Positions 22,761 to 36,821 are shown, counted from the first letter of the stretch. The stretch: DNA of 38,915 nt from Candidatus Heteroscillospira lomanii (GCA_904419385.1 CAJFRI010000007.1:1-38915), one strand, 5' to 3'. The notes: generated by a model from the letters alone, not told the origin. Translations and numbers: made by a program.

Positions 22761-23090
22761 GTGATCTGCAAGGTGAAAAGACGGATGAAGAAAGCCGACT
22801 TCATCTCAGAGCTGGCGGGCCTGGCCTTTGGCGGCTGCAACGACGCCGTGAAGCTCCTGTTCATCGACCCGGAGGACGGGGGCGGGGGCGTCGATGGGCT
22901 GGACCTGCGCCATGTGAGCGAGATGAAGCGCGCGGCGAACGGGGCCGTCGAGATACGGCTGGTGAACAGGCTGGAGCTCCTGAGGCTGCTGGCCGAGCAG
23001 GTGGACGGGGAGACGAGCGCTGCCGAGAGCCTGGTCTCCGCGCTCGACCGCGCGGCCGGGGCGCTGGGGGGCGGAGAGCGTGAAGATTGA
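22761..23090 (+). CDS. Small protein at head of phage-derived operon, possibly terminase small subunit
   Basis: Position directly before terL with overlap; MKKADFISELAGLAFGGCNDAVKLLF... No decisive motif. Alternative starts 22773 and 22785. Confidence 0.45.
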   Translation: MICKVKRRMKKADFISELAGLAFGGCNDAVKLLFIDPEDGGGGVDGLDLRHVSEMKRAANGAVEIRLVNRLELLRLLAEQVDGETSAAESLVSALDRAAGALGGGERED

Positions 23091-24363
23091 GCGCTTCTCG
23101 CCGAAGCAGCTGAGGCTGCTGACCTGGTGGCTGCCGTCGTCGGGCGGCGGGAGGTATGACGCCGTGATATGCGACGGGGCAGTGCGCAGCGGAAAGACGA
23201 TGTGCATGGGGCTGTCGTTCGTCATGTGGGCAATGTGTTCTTTCGACGGGCGGCATTTCGGGCTCTGCGGCAAGACCATCGCCTCGATAAGGCGCAACAT
23301 GCTCGGCGAGCTGCTGCCGCTTTTGAGGGAGATGGGGTGGAGCTGCAGGGACCAGGTCTCGAGGAACGCGGTGGTCATAGAACAGGGCGGCCGGAGCAAC
23401 ACCTTTTATCTGTTCGGCGGGCGGGACGAGGGCTCCCGCGCGCTGATACAGGGCGTTACGCTCGCCGGGGTGCTGCTCGACGAGGCGGCGCTGATGCCGC
23501 GCAGCTTTGTGGAGCAGGCCGCAGCGAGATGTTCCGTCGAGGGGGCGAAGCTCTGGTTCAACTGCAATCCCGAGTCGCCCTCGCACTGGTTTTACCGCGA
23601 GTGGATACTCAAGGCGAGCGAGCGGAGGGCGCTGTATCTGCATTTCCGGATGAGCGACAACCCGACGCTGTCGAAAACGATGCTTGCGCGCTACTCGCGG
23701 ATGTACTCCGGCGCGTTCTACCGCAGGTTTGTGCTCGGCGAGTGGGTGCAGGCGGATGGGCTGGTCTACGGCTTTTTCGACGAGTCGATGGCACAGCCGG
23801 TGCCAGAGGGGAAGTTTGGGCGATATGCTGTGTCCTGCGACTACGGGACGGTGAACCCCGCGTCATTCGGCCTCTGGGCCGAGAGGGAGGGCGTGTGGTA
23901 CCGCATAGACGAGTTCTATTTCGACTCGAGGCGGGAGGGGCGGCAGATGACAGACGGCGAGTACGTCGCGGCGCTCAAAGAGCTCATCGGCGCGCGGAAA
24001 GTCGAGGCGGTGATCGTCGACCCCTCGGCGGCGAGCTTCATCGAGGCGCTCACGCGCGAGGGGCTGCCCGTCGTCAAGGCGGACAACGACGTGCTGCGCG
24101 GGATAAGGCTGACGGCGGAGCTGCTGCGCACGGGCAGGCTGGTGATATGCCGGAACTGTGCCGACGCCCTGCGCGAGATCGCGCTCTACTCCTGGGAGCC
24201 GGGCGGGACGGACAGGCCCGTAAAGGCAAACGACCACGCGATGGACGACATCCGCTATTTCGCGGCGAGCTTTGTGTGCGCAAGGCGGGACGGCTTTGCG
24301 GCGCGGAGCGTCGGCAGATCACTCTCAGACAACATGGGATGGAGGAGTTTGATGGAAAAGTGA
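23080..24363 (+). CDS. Phage terminase large subunit
   Basis: Walker A DGAVRSGKTMCM, Walker B AGVLLDEAALMP, nuclease acidic residues in VSCDYGTVNPAS, AVIVDPSAASF, MDDIRYFAASF. Confidence 0.9.
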   Translation: MKIERFSPKQLRLLTWWLPSSGGGRYDAVICDGAVRSGKTMCMGLSFVMWAMCSFDGRHFGLCGKTIASIRRNMLGELLPLLREMGWSCRDQVSRNAVVIEQGGRSNTFYLFGGRDEGSRALIQGVTLAGVLLDEAALMPRSFVEQAAARCSVEGAKLWFNCNPESPSHWFYREWILKASERRALYLHFRMSDNPTLSKTMLARYSRMYSGAFYRRFVLGEWVQADGLVYGFFDESMAQPVPEGKFGRYAVSCDYGTVNPASFGLWAEREGVWYRIDEFYFDSRREGRQMTDGEYVAALKELIGARKVEAVIVDPSAASFIEALTREGLPVVKADNDVLRGIRLTAELLRTGRLVICRNCADALREIALYSWEPGGTDRPVKANDHAMDDIRYFAASFVCARRDGFAARSVGRSLSDNMGWRSLMEK

Positions 24364-25511
24364 GCTTTTTGAAAAAGGAGGAAGGCACGGCGGCGCGCGC
24401 CCAGCTGCGTTCCGGGCAGAGGCACCCGTTTATGGCGCTGGACGGATATGTGCCGCTCGGCGGCGGAGACTCGCGCCTGTACCGCGCGATACGCGAGGGC
24501 ATACCGCTCGTCGACGCCGCGATACAGAAACTCGTGCGCCTCACTGGCGGGGTGACGGCGCGCTGCGCGGACCCGGCGGCAGATAGGGAGCTCGGCAGGT
24601 TCCTGAGAGGCGTCGACACCGGGCGCGGCTGCCGCGGGATAGACTCGTTCCTCGAGAGCTATCTCGATTCCATGCTGACCTGCGGGCGGGCTGTCGGCGA
24701 GATAGTCACAGAGGGCAGCCGGGATATCGCCGCGGTGATATGCGGCAACGTGGCCGATGTGTGCGTGCGCGAGGGGGAGAGCCCGCTGGACTTCGCCATC
24801 TGCCGCTACGACGGGCTGGAGGCTGAGCCGCTGCCGTATCAGGAGCTGCTGCTGTTCACTCCGTTCAACCCGGACAGCGACAATCCCTACGGCTCGTCCA
24901 TGCTGCGCAGCATGCCGTTTCTCGCCGACATACTCATGAAGATATTCGCCTCCATCGGAGTGAACTGGGAGCGCTGCGGCAACGTGCGCTACGCGGTGGT
25001 CTGCCGCCCGGGGCAGGGAGCTGCCGGCGGGGCCGACGCCATGGCCGAGAGCGTTGCCCGAGAGTGGAGCAGCGCCATGCGCGAGACCCGCGGCGGCTCG
25101 GTGCGCGACTTCGTGGCCGTCGGCGACGTGGATATCAAGGTCATAGGCGCCGACAACCGCATGCTCGACAGCGAGGTGCCGGTGAGGCAGATACTCGAGC
25201 AGCTGGTCGCAAAGACGGGCATACCGCCGTTCATGCTCGGGCTCAGCTGGAACTCGACCGAGCGCATGTCATCGCAGCAGGCCGACATCATGACCAGCGA
25301 GATAGCCGCGCACAGGCGCAGCCTTGAGCCCGTGGTGAGGAAGATATGCTCGCTCTGGCTGAGGATGCACGGCTATTCGTGCCCGTATGAGCTCGAGTGG
25401 GAGGCTGTGAACCTGCAGGACAAGGTGGAGCTCGCCCGCGCCGCGCTCTATGCCGCCCAGGCAAAAAAGGCCCTGGCTGAAGCCGGGGCGGAGGGGGATG
25501 CTGAGAAGTGA
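24360..25511 (+). CDS. Phage portal protein
   Basis: GTGA overlap with terL; LFTPFNPDSDNPYGSSMLRSMPFLADILMKI..., KTGIPPFMLGLSWNSTERMSSQQADIMTSEI. Confidence 0.8.
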   Translation: MSFLKKEEGTAARAQLRSGQRHPFMALDGYVPLGGGDSRLYRAIREGIPLVDAAIQKLVRLTGGVTARCADPAADRELGRFLRGVDTGRGCRGIDSFLESYLDSMLTCGRAVGEIVTEGSRDIAAVICGNVADVCVREGESPLDFAICRYDGLEAEPLPYQELLLFTPFNPDSDNPYGSSMLRSMPFLADILMKIFASIGVNWERCGNVRYAVVCRPGQGAAGGADAMAESVAREWSSAMRETRGGSVRDFVAVGDVDIKVIGADNRMLDSEVPVRQILEQLVAKTGIPPFMLGLSWNSTERMSSQQADIMTSEIAAHRRSLEPVVRKICSLWLRMHGYSCPYELEWEAVNLQDKVELARAALYAAQAKKALAEAGAEGDAEK

Positions 25512-26416
25512 TAATCAAAACAGCGCTCGACGTCACGGCCGCGCAGCCGTGCGCGGCGGATCTCGAGGCGATAAACGCGCTCGCGAGGAGGGAGCTCGCG
25601 CCGGACGAGGTTTATGTCTTTGGAGTGAAGCTCTGTGACAATGAGATAGACCGCGATTTTGAGCGGTTTTCCGACGAGTGCCTCGACGAGCTCGCGCCCA
25701 TGTTCGTCGGCAAAACAGGACTGCTCGACCACAACTGGACGGCTTCCGGGCAGCTCGCGCGCATTTTCCGCGCCGAGGTCGAGACCGACGCCGGGCGCCT
25801 GAACAGCGCAGGCGAACCATACCGCTATATAAAGGCGTGGGCATACATGCTGCGCTCCGATGCGACGGAGGGCTTCATCGCCGCCATAGACGCCGGCATA
25901 GTGAGGGAGACCAGCGTCGGATGCTCCGTGGAGCACAGGACTTGCAGCATATGCGGCGAGGAGAACTGCCGCCATGTGCCGGGCAGGTCGTATGACGGCG
26001 AGCTCTGCCACAAAGTGCTCTCCGGGGCGGTGGACGCATACGAGTGGAGCTTTGTCGCCGTGCCCGCGCAGAGGGAGGCGGGAGTCATAAAATCCGCCGG
26101 ATGCAGTCTGCGCGGCTTCGTCGCCACAGCGGCGGGGAAAGGCTTTCGCGCGGAGTTTGAACGCCTGGAAAGGCTCGCGGCAGAGGGTGAGAGGCTGCTC
26201 GAGCGCGAGAGGGCGGAGGTGCGCAGGCTCGGCCTGCTGTGGGACGAGCAGATGGCGGGCGCCGTCGCCAGGGCGGCGGAGAACATGGACGCCGGCGAGC
26301 TCGCCGGCCTGAGGGAGAGGCTGGAGAAAAAACTGGCTGGGCGCTTTCCGCCCGTGTGCCAGCTGCCGGGCCTCGGGAGAGATACCCGCTTTGACGGGGA
26401 CGACTATATCATTTAG
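25508..26416 (+). CDS. Phage prohead protease-like protein with Cys-rich insert
   Basis: DNEIDRDFERFSDECLDELAPMFVGKTGLLDHNW (His), VRETSVGCSVE (Ser), RTCSICGEENCRHVPGRSYDGELCHKV; AYEWSFVAVPAQREAGVIK. GTG start overlapping portal gene. Confidence 0.75.
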   Translation: MIIKTALDVTAAQPCAADLEAINALARRELAPDEVYVFGVKLCDNEIDRDFERFSDECLDELAPMFVGKTGLLDHNWTASGQLARIFRAEVETDAGRLNSAGEPYRYIKAWAYMLRSDATEGFIAAIDAGIVRETSVGCSVEHRTCSICGEENCRHVPGRSYDGELCHKVLSGAVDAYEWSFVAVPAQREAGVIKSAGCSLRGFVATAAGKGFRAEFERLERLAAEGERLLERERAEVRRLGLLWDEQMAGAVARAAENMDAGELAGLRERLEKKLAGRFPPVCQLPGLGRDTRFDGDDYII

Positions 26417-26427
26417 GGGGAATTTCG

Positions 26428-26766
26428 ATGAAGTATTCTTTCAGCGGCATTGGCGCCGTAACGGCGACTTTCGGCACGGCGACAGGAGCCGACCTTGAGC
26501 CGGGCACGCCGGTGAAGATGAGCTCCGGCGGCACCGTCGCCGCCTGCTCCAGCGGCGACGACTTTATCGGCGCAGTGCTCGGCTGCCGCGGCGGCTGCGC
26601 CTGCGTTCAGATCGCCGGGTGCATTGAGCTCGCCTGCTCCGGCACGGCCCCGACTCCGGGCTATGTCAAACTCACCGCCGACGCAAACGGAGGCGTCTGC
26701 TCCGGCGAGGGCAGAGAGCGGCTTGTGCTCGACTGCTCGGACGGCATAGTCACCATCATGCTTTAA
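26428..26766 (+). CDS. DUF2190-like capsid decoration/stabilisation protein
   Basis: FGTATGADLEPGTPVKMSSGGTVAACSSGDDFIGAVLG; position between protease and capsid genes. Confidence 0.6.
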   Translation: MKYSFSGIGAVTATFGTATGADLEPGTPVKMSSGGTVAACSSGDDFIGAVLGCRGGCACVQIAGCIELACSGTAPTPGYVKLTADANGGVCSGEGRERLVLDCSDGIVTIML

Positions 26767-26777
26767 GGAGGACGAAC

Positions 26778-27785
26778 ATGGCATACAAATTCAGCGACAT
26801 AAGGCTCGACAAGGGCATGTATTCCGTGCCCGGAAAGGGATTTTCCGCCCTGCTCGAAGAGCTCGACCCGTCCGAGGCCTACCGCGGCACCCCGCTCGAG
26901 GGCCTCGACGCATACCAGCGGCAGCTGAAGCGCTTTGGGATCAAGGTGCGCGGCGCGGGCAGCGACAATGTTGAGAAGTTTTTCCACACCACTGAGAGCG
27001 CTGTGCTCTTTCCTGAGTACGTCTCCCGCAGCGTGCGCCAGGGCATAGAGGAGAGCAACGTCCTGCCGCACATAGTCGCGACCACCACGAACATCGACGG
27101 CCTCGACTACCGCGCCGTGTCCTCCGAGCCCGACGGCGAGCGCGACGCCCTCACCCATGTGGCTGAGGGCGCGATGATCCCGCAGACCGAGATACGCGCC
27201 AAGGAGAAGCTCATCACCCTGCACAAGCGCGGCCGCATGCTGGTCGCCTCCTACGAGGCCATACGCTTCCAGCGCCTGGAGCTGTTCTCCGTCATGCTGC
27301 GCCAGATAGGCAGCAATATCGCCAAGATGCACCTCGCCGACGCCGTCGACGTCCTCATAAACGGCGACGGCAACGACAACGCCGCCGAAAAGGTCACCGG
27401 CGTCACCCTCAGCTACGACGCGCTGGTCGATCTCTGGGGCAAGTTCGAGCCCTACACGCTCAACACCATGCTCGCCTCGCCGGACGTCATGCTGAGCCTG
27501 CTCAAGCTCGACGAGATGCAGAGCCCGATGGCCGGACTCAACTTCGCCGGCAGCGGCGACGCCGGTTCGCCCCTCGGCGCAAAGCTCATCCGTACCTCCG
27601 CCCTGCCCGAGGACACGCTCATCGGCCTCGACCGCGGCTATGCGCTCGAGATGGTGCGCTCCGGAGGCGTGAGCGTCGAGTACGACCGCCTGATCGACCG
27701 CCAGCTCGAGCGCGCGGCCATCACCAGCACCGCGGGCTTTGCCAAGATCTACGCCGGTGCGGCCGTTGTCATGGAGACGGTCTGA
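26778..27785 (+). CDS. Phage major capsid protein
   Basis: 335 aa; position after protease/decoration; DNVEKFFHTTESAVLFPEYVSRSVRQGIEES, PQTEIRAKEKLITLHKRGRMLVASYEAIRFQR. Confidence 0.8.
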   Translation: MAYKFSDIRLDKGMYSVPGKGFSALLEELDPSEAYRGTPLEGLDAYQRQLKRFGIKVRGAGSDNVEKFFHTTESAVLFPEYVSRSVRQGIEESNVLPHIVATTTNIDGLDYRAVSSEPDGERDALTHVAEGAMIPQTEIRAKEKLITLHKRGRMLVASYEAIRFQRLELFSVMLRQIGSNIAKMHLADAVDVLINGDGNDNAAEKVTGVTLSYDALVDLWGKFEPYTLNTMLASPDVMLSLLKLDEMQSPMAGLNFAGSGDAGSPLGAKLIRTSALPEDTLIGLDRGYALEMVRSGGVSVEYDRLIDRQLERAAITSTAGFAKIYAGAAVVMETV

Positions 27786-28147
27786 TGGCTCTGAGCGACG
27801 ATGTCCTCGAGAAGGCCGAGCTGTTCTTCGGCGGAGAGCTGAGCGAGGCGGGCCGGGAGAAGCTTGCGGCGCTCTGCTCCGCCGCGGCGGCGAGCCTGAG
27901 AGGGCGGCTCCGCTCCGGCGTGTCGCCGGAGAACATACACGACGAGTTCGTGTCGGCGGCTGGCGTGCTCGCGCTCGCCATGTACGCGGCGGCGACGGGG
28001 GAGGATTTCTCGTCCGTGCGCGTCGGGAATGTGACGCTCTCGCGCTCAGGCGCCTCCGCGGCGGATTCGCTCCGCGCGCTGGCCGAGGAGATGCTCGCCG
28101 GGCAGCTGCGCGGCACGGGCTTTGATTTCCGGGGGGTGAGGGGCTGA
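27785..28147 (+). CDS. Head-tail connector-like protein
   Basis: Immediate ATG overlap after capsid gene; small helical protein, position typical. Confidence 0.5.
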   Translation: MALSDDVLEKAELFFGGELSEAGREKLAALCSAAAASLRGRLRSGVSPENIHDEFVSAAGVLALAMYAAATGEDFSSVRVGNVTLSRSGASAADSLRALAEEMLAGQLRGTGFDFRGVRG

Positions 28148-28155
28148 ACTTCGAG

Positions 28156-28467
28156 GTGATAGAGCGATACGGCGAGGCCTTTACCGTGTTCAGCGACCTG
28201 AGCCCCGATGGGCGGGCGGAGCGCGGATTCATCCAGCCGCTCGGCCTCACGGACGAGAGCTGTGCCGCTCCGGGAGAGCCGGGGCGCGGCGGCGGGCGCT
28301 TTCTGCTCGTCGCGGGCTGCGAGGCCATAGCCCCGGATGAGCGCGTCGGGCGCATAGTGCACGGCTCGAGGCGGTTCGTGCTCGTGAAGCGCGAGGAATT
28401 GAACGGCGGCGGACTGGGGCACATCGAGTGCCTGCTGAGATGTGTAGGGAGGGAAGACGATGCTTGA
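28156..28467 (+). CDS. Phage head-tail junction protein, putative
   Basis: Position; MIERYGEAFTVFSDLSPDGRAERGFIQPLG. Confidence 0.45.
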   Translation: MIERYGEAFTVFSDLSPDGRAERGFIQPLGLTDESCAAPGEPGRGGGRFLLVAGCEAIAPDERVGRIVHGSRRFVLVKREELNGGGLGHIECLLRCVGREDDA

Positions 28468-28936
28468 CGCCGTGACCGAAAAACTCTGCTCCGAGCTCAA
28501 GGAGCGCGGGATAGAGGCTGTGCGTGCATTTCCGGCGCAGGACGTGCCGGATGGCGCGGCCGTGGCCGTGGGACTTAAAAAGGCGTCCGTGGGGCCCGGT
28601 GGATTCGGCGACTACCTCGGGCTTGCGGGCGGGGAGGAGCGCTTCGGCGTGCGCTGCAAGGCGGTCTTTTCCCTCGATATATTCTCGCCGCCGCCCGGGG
28701 GCTCGGCGGGGCTGTCGAAGGCGGCGGACGCGCTGATGGCCGCGCTCGGCTCTATGGCGGGCGGAGGAAGCGCGGAGCTGAACATCGGCACGGCAGAGTT
28801 CGACGCAAAGCTCTGCCGCCTGCGCTGCCGCTGCGAGCTGGGCGCGCAGTTCTGGCTCGTGCGCGAGAGCGCGGAGCCGGGCGGCGGATTTGAGGAATTT
28901 GTTGTGAAAGGGATGATACTGGATGCCATTGAATGA
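28460..28936 (+). CDS. Phage tail terminator/completion-like protein, putative
   Basis: Overlaps both neighbours; position before the sheath gene. Confidence 0.4.
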   Translation: MLDAVTEKLCSELKERGIEAVRAFPAQDVPDGAAVAVGLKKASVGPGGFGDYLGLAGGEERFGVRCKAVFSLDIFSPPPGGSAGLSKAADALMAALGSMAGGGSAELNIGTAEFDAKLCRLRCRCELGAQFWLVRESAEPGGGFEEFVVKGMILDAIE

Positions 28937-29948
28937 GAGACCGGGCGTGTATTCGAGCTATGAGGTCACGAGCAGCGTGCGCGGCTCGGCGGCGGGCGGC
29001 GATGTCGCATGCGCGGCCGTGGGCGCAAAGGGCTCGGAGCTCGGCTGCGTGAGGGTGACGGGCAGCGCCGAGGCGCTAGAGAAATTCGGCGACTGCGCGC
29101 TGACGGACCTGTGTTCCGTCGCGCTGCGCTGCGGCGCCGGCGCCGTCGTCTGCCGCGCGGTCGAGACCGGGGCGGACGCGGAGGACTATGCCGCGGCCTT
29201 CGGAGAGCTCTGTGCCGTCGAGGGGATAGGCACGATGTTCTGCGACAGCCGCAGCGCCGACATGCACGAGGCGATGATGGAGGCCATACTCGCCGCCGGC
29301 GAGTCCTGCCGCTACCGTATCGGCATTGCCGAGTCGGCTGGGACGGCGGATGAGCTCAGCGCGGCGGCCAAGGCGCTCAACTGCGAGCGCATGATACTCG
29401 CGGCGGCTGAGAGCACTGAGGCGGCCGGAAGCTATGCCGCGGCGCTGGCCGGAGCCATAGCCGCGACGGCAGATCCCGCCCTGCCCATAAACGGGGCGGA
29501 GCTGCGCGCCATAGGCTGCTCGCTGCGCTATACGGATGCGGACGTGAACACCCTGGTGCGCGCGGGCGTCACGCTGATCGAAAACGACGCCGGCACGCCC
29601 ACCGTGCTCCGCGCCGTCACCACGCGCACGACGACCGGCGGCGCCGCCGACGCGACCTGGCGCGAGGTGACCACCGTGAGGATAATCGACGAGGTGATCC
29701 CCGCCATACGCACGGCTCTGCGCAGCCGCTTTTCCAGGGCGAAGAACACCGAGCAGACGCGCGGCGCCATACGCACGCAGGTGATAATCGAGCTCCAGGA
29801 CCGCGTCGCACGTGAGATCATCGACGGCTACGGCGACGTGACCGTCGCGCCGTCGGAGTCTGACCCCACGGTCTGCGAGGTAGGATTCGGCTTCACCGTC
29901 GCCCACGGGCTGAACCACATCTACCTCGCCGCGAAGATAACTGTATAG
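28923..29948 (+). CDS. Contractile tail sheath protein (XkdK-like), short form
   Basis: N-term PLNERPGVYSSYEVTSS; C-term TRGAIRTQVIIELQDRVAREIIDGYGDVTVAPSESDPTVCEVGFGFTVAHGLNHIYLAAKITV; 341 aa. Confidence 0.8.
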   Translation: MPLNERPGVYSSYEVTSSVRGSAAGGDVACAAVGAKGSELGCVRVTGSAEALEKFGDCALTDLCSVALRCGAGAVVCRAVETGADAEDYAAAFGELCAVEGIGTMFCDSRSADMHEAMMEAILAAGESCRYRIGIAESAGTADELSAAAKALNCERMILAAAESTEAAGSYAAALAGAIAATADPALPINGAELRAIGCSLRYTDADVNTLVRAGVTLIENDAGTPTVLRAVTTRTTTGGAADATWREVTTVRIIDEVIPAIRTALRSRFSRAKNTEQTRGAIRTQVIIELQDRVAREIIDGYGDVTVAPSESDPTVCEVGFGFTVAHGLNHIYLAAKITV

Positions 29949-29958
29949 GAGGCATGGT

Positions 29959-30348
29959 ATGGGAACGGTCGGATTTCCCACAAGCAGCGATATCTACCTG
30001 GAGGCCGACGGCAGGAAGATCGCCGTCGTCCAGAGCTATAAGGCCACGGCCAGACGCTCCGAGCAGGTGGTCGAGGCGTTCGGCGAGTCGGAGCCCGTGG
30101 CGACCATAGCCACGCAGCTCACATATAAGCTCGAGCTAACGCGTCTCTACGCCACGGCGGAGGCGGTCGCCGACGGGATAGATTTTTATTCGCTGAGCGA
30201 TTTTTCGCTCGTAATCGTAAAGCCGGACAGGCGCGTCGTCTACACGGGCTGCCAGTGGAGCGAGATCGCCGAGACGGGCGAGCTGAGCCGTATGGTCGCC
30301 GAGCGCGTCACGCTCACGGCCAGCCACAGGATAGAGACCGAGACATGA
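29959..30348 (+). CDS. Tail tube protein (XkdM-like)
   Basis: Directly after sheath; FPTSSDIYLEADGRKIAVVQSYKATARRSEQVVEAFGESEPV...YKLELTRLYA. Confidence 0.75.
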   Translation: MGTVGFPTSSDIYLEADGRKIAVVQSYKATARRSEQVVEAFGESEPVATIATQLTYKLELTRLYATAEAVADGIDFYSLSDFSLVIVKPDRRVVYTGCQWSEIAETGELSRMVAERVTLTASHRIETET

Positions 30349-30584
30349 GCCTTGACGAGCTGATAGCAGGTCTTGAAAACGACAACATGGAGCGGCTGCG
30401 CTGGCTTGTCGCCGTGGAGCTCGGCATATCGCCGTATTGCCTGAGCGACTGGGAGACGGTGAAATGCGGCGCGCACATGGCGGCCGGACGGCGCGCGGGC
30501 GCGGAGGCAGGGGCAAACCCCGCTTTTGACCCGGCGCTGTTCGAGCGCATGAGAAAGGGAGGCGGAGATGGAGCCGGTGCTTGA
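30345..30584 (+). CDS. Small protein after tail tube, possible tail assembly chaperone
   Basis: ATGA overlap with tube gene; MSLDELIAGLENDNMERLRWLVAVELGISPYCLSDWE; 79 aa. Confidence 0.45.
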   Translation: MSLDELIAGLENDNMERLRWLVAVELGISPYCLSDWETVKCGAHMAAGRRAGAEAGANPAFDPALFERMRKGGGDGAGA

Positions 30585-31029
30585 TTCATCTGAGCTCAGG
30601 GCGATAGCGAGCGAGATACTCGCCGTCCTGGAGGCGGCCCCGGCCGTCACCGCGGGCAGCGTGCCGGAGGAGAGGAGCGCCCGGTACGCATACCTCGCCG
30701 GAGAGCGTACGGGACAGGCCGCTCCCGCTTTGATGTGGGAGCCGTCTGCGGCGCGCGGCGCCGCCTATCTCACCATGAGGCGCGCTCCGAACGAGGGCGG
30801 GGATTTTCTCGGCTACGGGGCGGAGTCCGGCGCGGACGGAGGATATCCGCTTCATGCTCCGCCTCGGAGGATGGCGGCGGACGGGAGCGGAGGTGGAGCG
30901 CGCCTCGGCTTCGAGCTCCCCGGCGTGACGGGTTCGGAGCGCCGCGACGGCCTCTGCCTGCTTGAAGAGGCGTCGGAGCGGATACGGCGGGACAGCCGCC
31001 GCTACGACGCGCCGCTTGAAAAATACTGA
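30568..31029 (+). CDS. Phage-operon protein of unknown function occupying the tape-measure position
   Basis: 153 aa, RBS ggaggcggag; C-term LCLLEEASERIRRDSRRYDAPLEKY; lacks the length and repeats of a tape measure. Confidence 0.6.
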   Translation: MEPVLDSSELRAIASEILAVLEAAPAVTAGSVPEERSARYAYLAGERTGQAAPALMWEPSAARGAAYLTMRRAPNEGGDFLGYGAESGADGGYPLHAPPRRMAADGSGGGARLGFELPGVTGSERRDGLCLLEEASERIRRDSRRYDAPLEKY

Positions 31030-31041
31030 GGAGGTGTTTTC

Positions 31042-31587
31042 GTGAACCTGACGCCTATGCGCTACAAGGACTACACCTGGCCGCACAACCCGCGGACATA
31101 CGAGGTGGTGTTTTCGCGCGACGTCGCATGCCGCAAGGTGCCGTTCGGGGCATATGTACTGCAGAACATGGGACGGAGCCGCCGCGTGCTGCGCGGGAGC
31201 GGCGAGTTCGTGGGCGAGGGGGCGTATGACGAGTTCAAGCGCCTCGCCTCGGTGTTCTACGAGAACAGGCCGGGGCTGCTCATACACCCGCTGTGGCAGG
31301 AGAGCAACGCATATTTCGTGGAGCTGAGCCTGCGCGAGGTGCCGACGGAGAACTATGTGGCGTACAGCTTTGAGTTTTGGGAGAGCTTCGACCAGTACGG
31401 CGCCGTGACCGAGGCCGGGCGCGAGGGTCTCGGCGAGCCGGAGCAGAACAGGCACGTCGTCCTGCCGGGTGAGACGTTTTGGAGCATAGCCGCGCAGCAC
31501 GGCGGGGCGCAGGAGCTGCTCGCGCTGAACCCGCAGATAAAAAATCCGAACCTGCTCGCGGCGGGCGACGTCGTGCGCATAAAGTGA
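31042..31587 (+). CDS. LysM-domain baseplate/tail assembly protein (XkdP-like)
   Basis: C-term HVVLPGETFWSIAAQHGGAQELLALNPQIKNPNLLAAGDVVRIK (LysM); RBS gaggaggtg. Confidence 0.8.
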   Translation: MNLTPMRYKDYTWPHNPRTYEVVFSRDVACRKVPFGAYVLQNMGRSRRVLRGSGEFVGEGAYDEFKRLASVFYENRPGLLIHPLWQESNAYFVELSLREVPTENYVAYSFEFWESFDQYGAVTEAGREGLGEPEQNRHVVLPGETFWSIAAQHGGAQELLALNPQIKNPNLLAAGDVVRIK

Positions 31588-31596
31588 GGGGCGGAC

Positions 31597-32526
31597 ATGG
31601 AGGCTTATGTTTTCTCCGCGCGCGGAGAGCGCACGGCGCTGCCCGTGCTGCTGGGCTGGGACGTGGTGCACAGCGCGCTCGACTGCGATGCGTTCGAACT
31701 CACCGTGCCGCTTGCCGAGGGGCTGAGCGAGGCTCTTGAGACGGCCGCGGCCATAAGCTGCACCCACGAGGGCATGACGGTGTTCACCGGAGTCGTCGAC
31801 GAATATGAGCTGCGCGCGCTGCCGTCCGGAGGCGAGGCGCTCATATCCGGCAGGGGATACGCGGCGTATCTGCTCGACAATGAGGCCGAGAGCGCCGAGT
31901 ACTGGAACCCGGGCATTGAGCTCATCCTCGAGCGTCACGTCTACCCGTGGAGGATAACCGACGTGGAATACGGACGCATGGAGTGCCGCGGGCGTTTTTC
32001 GATAAGCTCCGGCACGAGCCAGTGGAAGGTGCTGCGCGAGTTCTGCATGTTCGCGGCCGGGACAGTGCCGCGCTTCGACAGGAGCGGCAGGCTCATACTG
32101 ACCGGCGCGAAAGGCGGCGAGGCCGATCTCTCCGGCGCTCCCGTGATAGAGGAGAGATATCTCGCGCAGCGCAGCGGGGTGTTCTCGCATGTGCTGGTGA
32201 AAAACAGCGCGGGCGTCTCGTCCACGGTCGAGAATCCGCGCGCGGCCGGGCTCGGGCTGCTGTGCAGGCGGGTGGTGAACGTGCCGCGCAGCGTGCGCTA
32301 CGACACCATGCGCAGCACGGGCGAGTATCAGATCGAGCAGTCCGAGCGCCTCAGCCGGGTGCTCACGGTGACGCTGCCGCTCATGTTCCCGGCTTTTGCG
32401 GGCGACACCGTGCGCCTCGCGGGCACGCCGCTGGGCACGAGCGGGCGGTTTTTCGTAGCGGAGAGCCGCTGCCGTGCCGGCGGCGGCTCAGGTGAGACGG
32501 TGCTCAGGCTGACCAGGGAGGAGTGA
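31597..32526 (+). CDS. XkdQ/gpD-like baseplate hub protein
   Basis: Position between LysM and gpV-like genes; EAAAISCTHEGMTVFTGVVDEYELRALPSGGEALISGRGYAAYLLDNEA. Confidence 0.7.
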   Translation: MEAYVFSARGERTALPVLLGWDVVHSALDCDAFELTVPLAEGLSEALETAAAISCTHEGMTVFTGVVDEYELRALPSGGEALISGRGYAAYLLDNEAESAEYWNPGIELILERHVYPWRITDVEYGRMECRGRFSISSGTSQWKVLREFCMFAAGTVPRFDRSGRLILTGAKGGEADLSGAPVIEERYLAQRSGVFSHVLVKNSAGVSSTVENPRAAGLGLLCRRVVNVPRSVRYDTMRSTGEYQIEQSERLSRVLTVTLPLMFPAFAGDTVRLAGTPLGTSGRFFVAESRCRAGGGSGETVLRLTREE

Positions 32527-32530
32527 GAAA

Positions 32531-32932
32531 ATGTGGATATCTGAGAATATCAAATTCGGCGGCGGGTCGGCCCCGGTGAGGGCGGAGACAGGCCGCGTGA
32601 GCATCGCGGGCGCAGAGGCCGCCGTTGTGACCGACGGGGAAAAGCGCTCGCTGCTCACGGCGCTGCCACCAGGCATAAGATCGAGCGCAAAGCTGGGGCA
32701 GAGGGTGCTGCTCATAACGACTGACTCCGGCGAGGCTGTCGTCGCCGGGGTGACAGACGGCGCCGCGCCGGAGTCGCTCGCCATCGAGGCCGGCGGCTGC
32801 CTTATCGAGCTCGACGGCGGCGAGGTGAAGATCTCCGCCGGGAGGATAGAGCTGTCGGGCGGCACGGTCGGCATCGACGGGGCGCTGTACATAAACGGCG
32901 AGAAATACGAGCCGCCGGAGGGGGCGGTCTGA
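32531..32932 (+). CDS. Baseplate spike (gpV-like) protein
   Basis: LTALPPGIRSSAKLGQRVLLI...; beta-rich C-term IELDGGEVKISAGRIELSGGTVGIDGALYINGEKYEP. Confidence 0.65.
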   Translation: MWISENIKFGGGSAPVRAETGRVSIAGAEAAVVTDGEKRSLLTALPPGIRSSAKLGQRVLLITTDSGEAVVAGVTDGAAPESLAIEAGGCLIELDGGEVKISAGRIELSGGTVGIDGALYINGEKYEPPEGAV

Positions 32933-33285
32933 TGGAGCTGAGACTGGTGAACGGCGATTACGCCGTCGGCGAATACCATGATTTTGAGAGCGTGTCCGGG
33001 GCCGGGGAGACTGCCCAGAGGGCGATGATGAAGCTCGCTGCGCGCAGGGGCGGGTGCGCCGTGCTGCCCGAATACGGCAGCAGGCTCTATACCCTCGCCT
33101 CCGTAAAAGAGAGCGAGAGGGACGGCTGCGTGAGACAGTTCGTGGCCGAGGCGCTCGACGGGGAGGGGCTCGCCCTCAGAGACGCCGCCATCCGCAGCGA
33201 GGACGGGCGGCTGTATGCCGACCTGGTCATCGCCGGGAACGGTGTTGATCTCACAGTGACAGCTGAGGCCGGAGGTGTGATTTGA
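32932..33285 (+). CDS. gp25/XkdS (DUF2634)-like baseplate protein
   Basis: AQRAMMKLAARRGGCAVLPEYGSRLYTLASVKESERDGCVRQFVAEALDGEG. Confidence 0.75.
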   Translation: MELRLVNGDYAVGEYHDFESVSGAGETAQRAMMKLAARRGGCAVLPEYGSRLYTLASVKESERDGCVRQFVAEALDGEGLALRDAAIRSEDGRLYADLVIAGNGVDLTVTAEAGGVI

Positions 33286-34331
33286 GAAGCATTGACGATA
33301 TATATAACGAGATGGTGAGCGACTACGAGAGCCGCTGCTCCGTCGTCCTGCGAGACGGAGGCGACATGTCGCTCAGGATGAGGGCTTTTGCCGCGCAGGT
33401 GTTCGCGCTGGAGAGCCAGCTCGAGTTCTCGCGCAGGCAGGCGTTCCCGCAGACGGCGCAGGGCGAATATCTCGACCTGCACGCCGGGATACGCGGCCTC
33501 GAGCGCGGCGGAGCCGTAAAAGCCGTGGGCATCATCCGCTTTTTTGTGAGCAAGGCGCTATCCGAGGACGTATCCGTCCCCGAGGGCACGGTGTGCACCG
33601 ACGCGGCGGGCACGGAGTTCATAACGACGGAGCCCGGCATCATCCAGGCGGGCGGGCTGAGCTGCGATGTGGCGGCAGCGGCGATGAGCGGCGGTGAGAG
33701 CGGCAACGCCCCGGCCAAGGCCGTGTGTTTCATGCCGTTTGCCCCGGTGGGAGTGTCGTCCTGCCAGAATCCGGCGCCTTTTTCCGGCGGCAGCGGCGGC
33801 GAGGACGACGAGAGCCTGCGCGCGAGGATACTCGACAGCTATCGCAGCCTCCCAAACGGCGCCAACATCGCCTATTACGAGGCGCAGGCGCTCGCTGTGC
33901 CGGGTGTGTTCGCCGTGCAGGTACTGCCGAAGCGCCGCGGCGCCGGCACCGTCGACGTGGTGGTCGCCGCCGAAGGCGGCACGCCGGAGAGCGGCGTCGT
34001 CGAAGAGGTCGGGCTGCGCCTCAGCTCGCAGCGCGAGATATGCGTCGACATCGAGGTGAGCGCTCCGCAGCTGAGCCCGACGGACGTGTCGGTCCAGATA
34101 GAGGCAGAGGATTTCGCCGGGGCGAAGGCCGCCGTCGAAGGGGCGCTGGATGCCATGTTCACCGGCGCCATGCTCGGACGGCCCGTGCTGCTCGCGGAGC
34201 TCGGCAGCGTGATCTTCTCCGCCGCGGGCGTGACCAACTATAAACTGAGCGCGCCGGCCGCCGACATCGCGGCTGCCGACGGAGTGCTGCCCACGCTCGG
34301 CACGCTCACCATAACGGAGATGGGGGCGTGA
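33282..34331 (+). CDS. Baseplate J/XkdT-like protein
   Basis: PQTAQGEYLDLHAGIRGLERGGAVKAVGIIRFFVSKALSEDVSVPEGTVCTDAAGTEFITTEPG; GGSGGEDDESLRARILDSYRSLPNGANIAYYEAQALAVPGVFAVQVLP. Confidence 0.9.
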   Translation: MRSIDDIYNEMVSDYESRCSVVLRDGGDMSLRMRAFAAQVFALESQLEFSRRQAFPQTAQGEYLDLHAGIRGLERGGAVKAVGIIRFFVSKALSEDVSVPEGTVCTDAAGTEFITTEPGIIQAGGLSCDVAAAAMSGGESGNAPAKAVCFMPFAPVGVSSCQNPAPFSGGSGGEDDESLRARILDSYRSLPNGANIAYYEAQALAVPGVFAVQVLPKRRGAGTVDVVVAAEGGTPESGVVEEVGLRLSSQREICVDIEVSAPQLSPTDVSVQIEAEDFAGAKAAVEGALDAMFTGAMLGRPVLLAELGSVIFSAAGVTNYKLSAPAADIAAADGVLPTLGTLTITEMGA

Positions 34332-34915
34332 GCATGGGATACGCCGGCCATATGAAAGAGCTGCTGCGCCCGCTGGGGATATACAGGCTCGACGGCGGTT
34401 ATTCCGGATCCGAGTTGGACGTCGAGGGGGCTGAGCTCGACGCTTTTTCCGCCTCGGCCGACGCCGCGCTCGATGAGATGCTGCTCGCGACAGCGGAGGG
34501 GGACGGGCTCGCCGCGTGGGAAGAGCTCTTCCCCTACCGCCCGCTGAGGACGGACACCGAGGGAAGGCGCGCCGCCGTGGCCGCGCTCATGCGCATAGAC
34601 GGAAGCAGCTTCACTCCCGAGGCGCTCAACGGCACGCTCGCGGGTTCGGGCTTCAGCGCCGTTGCCGAGGAGGGGGCGGAGCCGATGACGGTCATCGTGC
34701 GCTTCACCGATGTGCGCGGGAAACCGCCGGAGTTCGACGAGGTGCACAGGAGGATAGAGGACATACTCCCGTGCCATCTCAATGTTGAGTATGTTTTTGC
34801 ATACCCGACATGGGCGGAGATAGAGTCGGGCGGCCTGACCTGGGGCGAGCTCGACGCCATGGAGCTCACCTGGGACGAGTTTGAGCGCCATGACTTTTCG
34901 CAGCCGCAGACATAA
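34328..34915 (+). CDS. DUF2313 (XkdU/gpI-like) baseplate protein, last gene of operon
   Basis: MKELLRPLGIYRLDGGYSGSELDVEGAELDAFSASADAALDEMLLATAEGDGLAAWEELFPYRP. Confidence 0.8.
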   Translation: MSMGYAGHMKELLRPLGIYRLDGGYSGSELDVEGAELDAFSASADAALDEMLLATAEGDGLAAWEELFPYRPLRTDTEGRRAAVAALMRIDGSSFTPEALNGTLAGSGFSAVAEEGAEPMTVIVRFTDVRGKPPEFDEVHRRIEDILPCHLNVEYVFAYPTWAEIESGGLTWGELDAMELTWDEFERHDFSQPQT

Positions 34916-34920
34916 ACAGA

Positions 34921-34950
34921 GCGCCGGAGCGGAATGCTCCGGCGCTTTTT
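34921..34950 (+). terminator. Terminator of phage-derived operon
   Basis: GCGCCGGAGC-GGAAT-GCTCCGGCGC-TTTTT. Confidence 0.85.
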
Positions 34951-34960
34951 GCGTCTGTAT

Positions 34961-35698
34961 TCAGTTTTCCGGCAGAGGAGGGCGTTTCGGCAAAAGGACC
35001 TTGCCGAAACAGAACACGGTTATCCCGCTGCTCGCGGGGATCTCGGTGTCGGCGTCGGCCCTCGCGCGGTTGAGCGAGAAGAGGTAGACATTGCCGTAAC
35101 TGTCCTCGCAGTACTGCTTGCACTTGATGTCGCCGTCGACAAAGAAGAGGCCGACGTCGCCGTCCGAGATGGGCATGCTGCGGCTGACGAGCACTATGCT
35201 GCCGTCGGCGATGTAGGGCTCCATGCTGTCGCCGCTGATGCGCGCGGCAAAGTCCGCGCGGCTGTCCGCTGGGACTGAGTAATCCTCGTAGTCCTCGCCG
35301 AGAGCGGGGTTCGCGTAGCCCGCGGCGGCCGGCGTGGCGTAGAGCGGGATGATCCTGGAGGCGGCCCCGCTCTCGCGCCGCGTGCTCGAGATGCGCTCGA
35401 GCTCCGCGCCGGCGACCAGGCCGACCATCGAGCGCCCGTGATCGTCCAGGGCGCGGTATTTCCTGAGCAGGTCGTGCTCCTCGACGCTGAGCGTCTCGGA
35501 CTCGTCTCCGCCGCACATGAACTCGAGCGGCACCTCAAGCACGCTGCACATATTGCGCAGCACGTCGACATCTATCTTGTTGGCGTCGCGCTCGAGTATG
35601 CTGTAAAGAGTCTGTGAATTTATGCCCGAGCGGCGGGAAAGCTCCTTCGGCGTCATGCCGCGCTCGGCGAGCACCGACTTGATGCGTGAACCCAGCAT
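34961..35698 (-). CDS. LexA/CI-like repressor: N-terminal HTH + S24 self-cleaving peptidase
   Basis: HTH MLGSRIKSVLAERGMTPKELSRRSGINSQTLYSILE; Ala-Gly cleavage motif PAAAGYANP; catalytic Ser in ISGDSMEPYIADGSIVLVSRSM; Lys in DIKCKQYC. Confidence 0.9.
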   Translation of the reverse strand: MLGSRIKSVLAERGMTPKELSRRSGINSQTLYSILERDANKIDVDVLRNMCSVLEVPLEFMCGGDESETLSVEEHDLLRKYRALDDHGRSMVGLVAGAELERISSTRRESGAASRIIPLYATPAAAGYANPALGEDYEDYSVPADSRADFAARISGDSMEPYIADGSIVLVSRSMPISDGDVGLFFVDGDIKCKQYCEDSYGNVYLFSLNRARADADTEIPASSGITVFCFGKVLLPKRPPLPEN

Positions 35699-35754
35699 AG
35701 GATCACCTCCACACCTCGATGATAACATATTAATTGAGAAAGTCAATATTTAAT

Positions 35755-36304: not shown

Positions 36305-36547
36305 ATGGACCTCAAAACTCTTGCGGGAGAGTACCGCGTGAGCGGGGAAGCATGCCGCTCGAGGGCTGCCATGCTCGAGCGCGACCTGCGCCGCAGGCAG
36401 AAGCTGGGCGAGATAACAGCGCTGGAGACCACAAGGCTGCGCCGGCGCATAAGCATGCTGCGCGGTATGGCGCGTGACTGTGCCGGGACGGCAGCGTATC
36501 TTGAAAACTACTACAGGGGAGGGCCTGGATTTGAGCTATACATATGA
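36305..36547 (+). CDS. Small basic helical protein (phage-type), function unknown
   Basis: RBS ggaggtgggagatat; MDLKTLAGEYRVSGEACRSRAAMLERDLRRRQ...; overlaps the next gene. Confidence 0.65.
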   Translation: MDLKTLAGEYRVSGEACRSRAAMLERDLRRRQKLGEITALETTRLRRRISMLRGMARDCAGTAAYLENYYRGGPGFELYI

Positions 36548-36821
36548 CGACAGACAGCCGGAGATCGCGGTGATACAGGAGGCGTTCCCGGCGCTGACGG
36601 AGGATGCCCGCATATGCCGCATAATGGCGGGCGCCCTGCGCGAGCGGCTCACCCCGCTGCAGCGCCAGGCTCTGCTGCTGCACTATGCCAAGGGAAAATC
36701 AGTGTCGGAGATAGCGCGGATGCGCGGCGTGTGCCCGTCGACTGTGTGGCGCACGCTCCAGCGAGCAAAGGACGAGCTCGCCTGGGCGATGCGCCTCGGC
36801 GGGATATGCATACGAGATTGA
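36531..36821 (+). CDS. Sigma-70 region-4-like (phage/PBSX Xpf-like) transcription factor, TTG start
   Basis: RERLTPLQRQALLLHYAKGKSVSEIARMRGVCPSTVWRTLQRAKDELAWAM; RBS ggggaggg before TTG 36531. Confidence 0.75.
   Translation: MSYTYDDRQPEIAVIQEAFPALTEDARICRIMAGALRERLTPLQRQALLLHYAKGKSVSEIARMRGVCPSTVWRTLQRAKDELAWAMRLGGICIRD

Follow-up and report, generated by a model that had tools for sequence, protein, structure and literature searches.

The locus examined here raises the question whether a phage-derived particle operon of Candidatus Heteroscillospira lomanii is maintained by its host as a GTA-like particle, serves as a killer particle, or is merely a decaying prophage or a still mobile element. 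The operon is located in a stretch of 38,915 nucleotides (GCA_904419385.1, CAJFRI010000007.1:1-38915), hereafter referred to as the window.

The operon and its flanking regions

According to Pfam and PHROG profile matches the operon of the window begins with TerS, ends with Mu Gp48 and comprises 19 intact genes on one strand (Table 1). The initial annotation, which had been made from the sequence alone, had counted about 18 same-strand genes in ~12.2 kb; we identified 19 collinear plus-strand ORFs at 22761-34915 with intact frames and with start and stop codons overlapping as it had described. The strong terminator that it had placed at the operon end proved to be real (hairpin at 34920-34946, then TTTTT), and TerL does retain the ATPase and nuclease motifs, namely a Walker A motif (DGAVRSGKT), a Walker B motif (VLLDEA) and the acidic nuclease residues.

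Table 1. Predicted features of the operon and its vicinity (positions refer to the window).
Feature	Position	Strand	Basis or remark
Degenerate palindromic operator TTGTCCGGCTCGATGCAA	22711..22728		by-eye alignment with the perfect site of a congener (L033); 3 mismatches
TerS, C-terminal half only, without N-terminal DNA-binding domain	22761..23090	+	longer homologues match Terminase_2 (PF03592)
TerL, motifs intact	23080..24363	+	phrog_2, 6e-49
Portal	24360..25511	+	phrog_30703, E 3e-160
Putative prohead protease/scaffold	25508..26416	+	phrog_16951; in 20/20 loci; function from position only
Head decoration protein	26428..26766	+	phrog_4588
Major capsid protein (MCP)	26778..27785	+	phrog_3922 E 3e-100, PF25209
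Head-tail connector	27785..28147	+	by position; in 20/20 loci
Head-tail connector/closure	28156..28467	+	by position
Tail completion-like protein	28460..28936	+	phrog_25177
Contractile tail sheath, 341 aa, short	28923..29948	+	PF17482, PF04984, phrog_279
Tail tube	29959..30348	+	phrog_27038
Remnant of tail assembly chaperone region, 79 aa	30345..30584	+	relatives: Gp41_Mu-like ORF, then second ORF at conserved CTAAAAAAAG slip site
153-aa protein in tape-measure slot, candidate mini tape measure	30568..31029	+	C-terminus RRDSRRYDAPLEKY conserved across genera
LysM / DNA_circ_N hub protein, XkdP-like	31042..31587	+	profile matches
Baseplate hub, XkdQ-like	31597..32526	+	phrog_177
Baseplate spike	32531..32932	+	PF21930 / phrog_25991, weak
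gp25-like baseplate wedge	32932..33285	+	phrog_975 E 0.002, weak
Baseplate J	33282..34331	+	PF04865 E 8e-43
Mu Gp48/XkdU-like baseplate wedge, final operon gene	34328..34915	+	PF10076
Terminator hairpin	34920..34950
HTH + peptidase S24 (cI/LexA-type) repressor, divergent, adjoining operon end	34961..35746	-	profile matches
Small-protein pair, second with sigma-70 region 4	36305..36821	+	also 3' of operon in related genera; regulatory role unproven

Among the flanking genes scanned, which include an HD hydrolase, one flank was found to carry 6S RNA, PBP1, rpoD and dnaG, and the other the divergent S24 repressor, tRNA-Tyr/Thr, the sigma-like pair, GH25 and GntR. An S24 repressor beside the operon was seen only in the genus of the window among the loci examined.

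No integrase, replication, lysis or fibre genes were detected among the scanned flanking genes of the window, no phage genes were recognised in the 9.8 kb of the contig past the window (ORFs inspected by eye, without profile search), and no att-like direct repeats bracketing the window copy were found. The initial statement that integrase, replication, lysis, fibre and att features are missing thus holds for the neighbourhood of the operon but not with regard to the tape measure, whose slot is occupied by the 153-aa protein. A complete integrase, lysis and replication set or att repeats adjacent to the operon, which would have refuted a domesticated system, did not appear. The locus does not meet the criterion of a temperate prophage, i.e. 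integrase, replication, lysis and att in one element, and within the window contig (the last 9.8 kb judged by eye) it meets the GTA criterion of lacking genes for autonomous replication or integration.

Distribution, inheritance and selection

In the Oscillospiraceae the MCP gene was detected as a single copy without internal stop in 55 of 151 genomes, representing 44 of 106 genera, including Oscillibacter, Flavonifractor, Dysosmobacter, Lawsonibacter and Flintibacter. Apart from a few partial matches, the MCP identity across carriers amounts to 57-82%. The gene order is the same across the whole operon in 19 other genomes, with the exception of locus L038, which is devoid of sheath, gp25, J and gp48. 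Where the MCP was absent the portal was absent as well (27/27 genomes). Relatives therefore carry either intact copies or none, and the frameshifted or decayed copies that would have pointed to an ordinary prophage were not encountered, with the single exception of one in-frame TAG in the portal gene of an otherwise GTA+ genome (G042:C31:11208-12323), a possible case of early decay or of a sequencing error.

The operon tree is nearly identical to the rpoB tree (Mantel r 0.85, p 1e-4, 20 genomes). Carriers are scattered over the rpoB tree, on which no fewer than 11 changes have to be assumed; given that the operon tree follows that of the host, this pattern most plausibly reflects an ancestral operon followed by many clean losses. 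Several genera carry the operon at the same ssrS-side locus as the window, two of them with the same downstream neighbours too, and in other clades it sits beside fixed housekeeping genes particular to each clade, for instance rpsF-ssb-rpsR or glgB-glgC. The vertical inheritance at the ssrS locus, which the initial annotation had proposed to examine together with the dN/dS of each gene, is borne out by these trees and neighbourhoods.

According to the dN/dS analysis (30 independent pairs, 15 operon genes) the median values are low in 15/15 genes tested and range from 0.08 (tube) to 0.32 (decoration, h1), with 0.10 for the MCP, 0.14 for the portal and 0.15 for TerL. Since the capsid and packaging genes are constrained as much as the tail genes, the head is in use. 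Purifying selection and the host-congruent tree agree with the earlier inference that the intact frames reflect selection for a kept particle, and the GTA criterion of a phage structural module preserved by vertical inheritance and selection is met. It is strongly supported that the operon is domesticated, vertically inherited and under selection. Many members of the family thrive without it, which counts against the GTA reading.

At the order level the MCP was detected in 83 of 396 genomes belonging to five families, nearly always as one copy. A sheath was detected in only 3 of 20 order-level loci; the others have a J/Gp48-type baseplate with no sheath detected, or hardly any genes that can be recognised as tail genes, although divergent sheaths may escape these searches. 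In locus L249 (genome G357) the capsid/terminase operon has three short genes after the MCP and is then directly followed by glgB, corresponding to a particle nearly without recognisable tail genes or to a tail encoded elsewhere.

At least 316 viral-contig entries of IMG/VR carry the MCP (loci L162-L241), and the best matches in the viral collections are almost all operon-sized (<=23 kb). On one of these contigs an integrase-like ORF is located beside the operon (L179, 18256-19428), which probably belongs to a neighbouring element.

Terminase, tail and operator-linked loci

Long TerS homologues align to Terminase_2 over its full length, the N-terminal half included. In the window and in many other loci only the second half is encoded. 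According to a proposal of Sherlock et al., a GTA-type TerS is defined by the lost N-terminal DNA-binding domain (PMC6854486). This GTA criterion is met in the window and not in the Oscillibacter/Dysosmobacter-type clade, where, as in some loci of other families, an HTH-like N-terminus is retained, so that a loss of specificity is not universal. Due to the lack of the DNA-binding domain, packaging is inferred not to favour a pac site. An AlphaFold model of the truncated TerS reached only modest confidence (pLDDT 69), and a fold search with it against the PDB gave no match.

The gap between the tube and LysM genes does not exceed 1.55 kb, and in 67 non-redundant loci the protein encoded in the tape-measure slot has a length of 102-316 aa (median 184 aa) and the end RD(A/S)RR(Y/F)DGGF. 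With only such a protein in the slot, a very short tail is implied. Ruler proteins usually account for 1.5 angstrom per residue; provided that the 102-316-aa protein acts as the ruler, we infer a very short contractile tail of ~15-47 nm. The criterion of a PBSX-like particle, a contractile late module with a full-length tape measure, is not met. Many relatives encode between the tube and LysM genes a Gp41_Mu-like chaperone with the conserved CTAAAAAAAG slip site, pointing to programmed -1 frameshifting in this chaperone region; the upstream chaperone half has been lost in the clade of the window. In the variants L038/L098 and L097, located at or near the locus of the window, the head module is kept and none of sheath, gp25, J and gp48 is detectable, which represents an exchange or a loss of the tail module.

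Immediately upstream of terS a palindrome TTGCAC-N6-GTGCAA (or TTGTAC-N6-GTACAA) was detected with at most one mismatch in 34 of 97 loci, compared to 0.33 expected from shuffles. The copy of the window is degenerate and that of its congener perfect; with 3 mismatches the operator is presumed to be weak in the window genome. A genome-wide search in 15 genomes, most of them picked for a perfect operon site, revealed 52 perfect sites and 0 control sites, and 26 perfect sites were found in 20 further, unselected GTA+ genomes versus 8 in 25 GTA- genomes.

Eight genomes carry unlinked copies of the operator in front of tail-fibre genes. In G515 such a copy precedes a collagen-like fibre gene, in G102 a fibre-like/holin/amidase cassette, and in the congener of the window (G023) a fibre gene starts 57 bp from the operator site. 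Of the 26 non-operon sites, 10 have a fibre start no more than 300 bp away, where 0.007 would be expected; 4 of these 10 are loci from which the fibre profile was built, and without them an independent 6 of 22 remain. The profile itself, built from five operator-linked fibre genes, matched 18 of 24 GTA+ and 1 of 16 GTA- genomes, or 14 of 20 and 1 of 16, respectively, when its own source genomes were left out (p 1e-4). One supposed fibre gene (L319) was dropped as an antisense artefact. The linkage of the operator to fibre loci is thus shown by computation, and its function is inferred.

As to lysis, a holin-amidase pair was detected 3' of TTGCATATTTTGATGCAA in genome G521, and lysis genes lie at unlinked loci behind the operator in one genus and possibly in a second. 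Neither these nor the unlinked fibre loci had been anticipated in the initial annotation. In three other lineages a holin gene adjoins gp48, as judged by coordinates (G515, G074, G078). In the window genome, a MAG of 92% completeness, the fibre profile found no match and no operator was found near its two holin genes. Together with the degenerate operator these results count against the GTA reading.

The fibre profile detects several fibre genes per genome. Divergent pairs occur at G082:C23:144741-145540, around one operator, and at G119:C11:374088-374789, and an array of six fibre genes within 26 kb (G128:C1:563112-589164) lies on a GTA-bearing contig; such pairs and arrays could form a diversifying receptor-binding repertoire. 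Perfect operators were furthermore observed in the remB/recF-gyrB region of two different genera (L317 and L329, site ~4001), so that the regulator might also affect gyrase expression. In genome G520 operators are located upstream of DnaD/RepA_N-like genes and near an S24 repressor gene (L312-L314); the regulator, or else an element that hitch-hikes, may be encoded there.

Proposed function and competing explanations

We consider it likely that the product of the operon is a GTA-like particle, domesticated and passed on vertically, which consists of a capsid and a very short contractile tail and is complemented by unlinked fibre and lysis loci. The initial suggestion of a GTA-like or domesticated particle operon is supported by the rpoB-like tree, the low dN/dS and the intact copies in relatives. 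Probably its role is the packaging and release of the host's own DNA fragments. A GTA mechanism is most likely but not shown: neither particles nor packaged DNA nor transfer have been demonstrated for the operon, and the packaging of random DNA, its delivery and the tail length are inferred. Upon induction by a signal not yet identified, TerS and TerL would fill the head with chromosomal DNA by the headful mechanism, and receptor-binding fibres and lysis proteins would be supplied from the unlinked loci. As judged from relatives, a putative and still unidentified host regulator may read TTGCAC-N6-GTGCAA at the operon, at the fibre genes and, in one genus, at the holin-amidase cassette. Lysis would then free the particles, which presumably deliver the DNA to related cells.

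The genes of RcGTA have a multi-locus layout, and PBSX is a single prophage in which the tape measure is full-length and the control genes are of the phage type. The operon resembles RcGTA and the other Rhodobacterales GTAs in being domesticated, vertical and multi-locus and in having a TerS (RcGTA gp1) without DNA-binding domain (PMC6854486), and differs from RcGTA, which has a long non-contractile tail and other regulators and belongs to the Alphaproteobacteria. With PBSX of Bacillus subtilis it has in common the contractile late module in the order from terminase to XkdU; the DNA packaged by PBSX consists of random host pieces of ~13 kb (PMC12946183). However, PBSX is a killer particle and not a family-wide vertical element.

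No paper pairing GTA with Oscillibacter or Oscillospirales was found in the literature searched. A GTA-like packaging has been described for Faecalibacterium by Borodovich et al. 2026, with particles, ~9 kb DNA and two operons (PMC12946183). FpGTA of F. prausnitzii is likewise a GTA-like operon of gut Oscillospirales with TerL, portal, capsid and a possible TerS without obvious DNA-binding domain; its second locus comprises baseplate, tail fibre, holin and endolysin, and it is widespread in its genus (PMC12946183). In contrast to the window-type operon with its 19 genes, contractile sheath and family-wide occurrence, FpGTA is podovirus-like without visible tail and is absent from Gemmiger and Subdoligranulum; among the MAGs searched in that study, a strong candidate operon was present in a single MAG, from Faecalibacterium (PMC12946183). 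Onthomonas, a member of the Oscillospiraceae, is among the packagers listed there, which suggests packaging of random host DNA in the family, although these events were not linked to a window-type operon (PMC12946183). The latter is a candidate for the cause of this case.

The main rival, to which we assign a clearly smaller though not negligible probability, is a PBSX-like killer particle that packages host DNA without delivering it and kills related strains by means of its contractile tail and fibres. The LysM, XkdQ, J and Gp48 genes are those of the PBSX late module, the multiple fibre genes per genome would suit a varying target range, and in PBSX itself 13 kb pieces of the chromosome are packaged without being injected, the particle working as a tailocin (PMC12946183). 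However, terminase, portal and capsid are selected as strongly as the tail, despite being unneeded for tail-only killing, the head module is kept in related families in which no sheath was detected, and a tape measure of normal size is absent.

A defective prophage in decay, or a recently integrated phage stripped of its other genes, would account for the missing integrase, replication and adjacent lysis genes, for the patchy presence and for the in-frame TAG in the portal of one relative. This explanation is very improbable and already contradicted by an MCP that is stop-free in 55 genomes and present as one copy per genome, by the low dN/dS, and by the host-congruent tree, the common housekeeping flanks and the operator-linked fibre genes. 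It seems just as hard to maintain that the operon is still moving horizontally by integration and replication functions encoded at other host loci. The chromosomal neighbours do differ between clades, the distribution is patchy and the viral-collection contig L179 has its integrase-like ORF, but the tree is congruent with rpoB, housekeeping neighbours are conserved within clades, the best viral-collection matches are nearly all operon-sized (<=23 kb), and att repeats are absent around the window copy.

Extending the preferred reading of a domesticated GTA-like particle, we tentatively propose, at somewhat less than even confidence, an ancestral GTA of the Oscillospirales in which a head module is combined with interchangeable tails, a dispersed regulon depends on one operator, and chromosomal packaging in the gut virome finds its explanation. 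If this is true, the tails are ultra-short and contractile in the Oscillospiraceae and elsewhere have no detected sheath or are nearly missing, and one operator governs the particle operon, the fibre repertoire and the lysis genes. The operon may also document very short contractile tails and the exchange of tail modules in GTAs. Its presence in 44 of 106 genera and in cultured species makes random chromosomal packaging in abundant gut anaerobes testable with named genes and a named operator.

Many viral-database entries from Oscillospiraceae may be host-encoded particles. The near matches in INPHARED are human faecal scaffolds, of which two have host housekeeping genes on either side; they were not used as evidence because contamination cannot be excluded. 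One of these two, a 46.7 kb entry filed as a phage (MT835508.1, L242), carries the head genes between the host rnf and ribosomal protein operons, which could be due to contamination and is suggestive of packaged host DNA.
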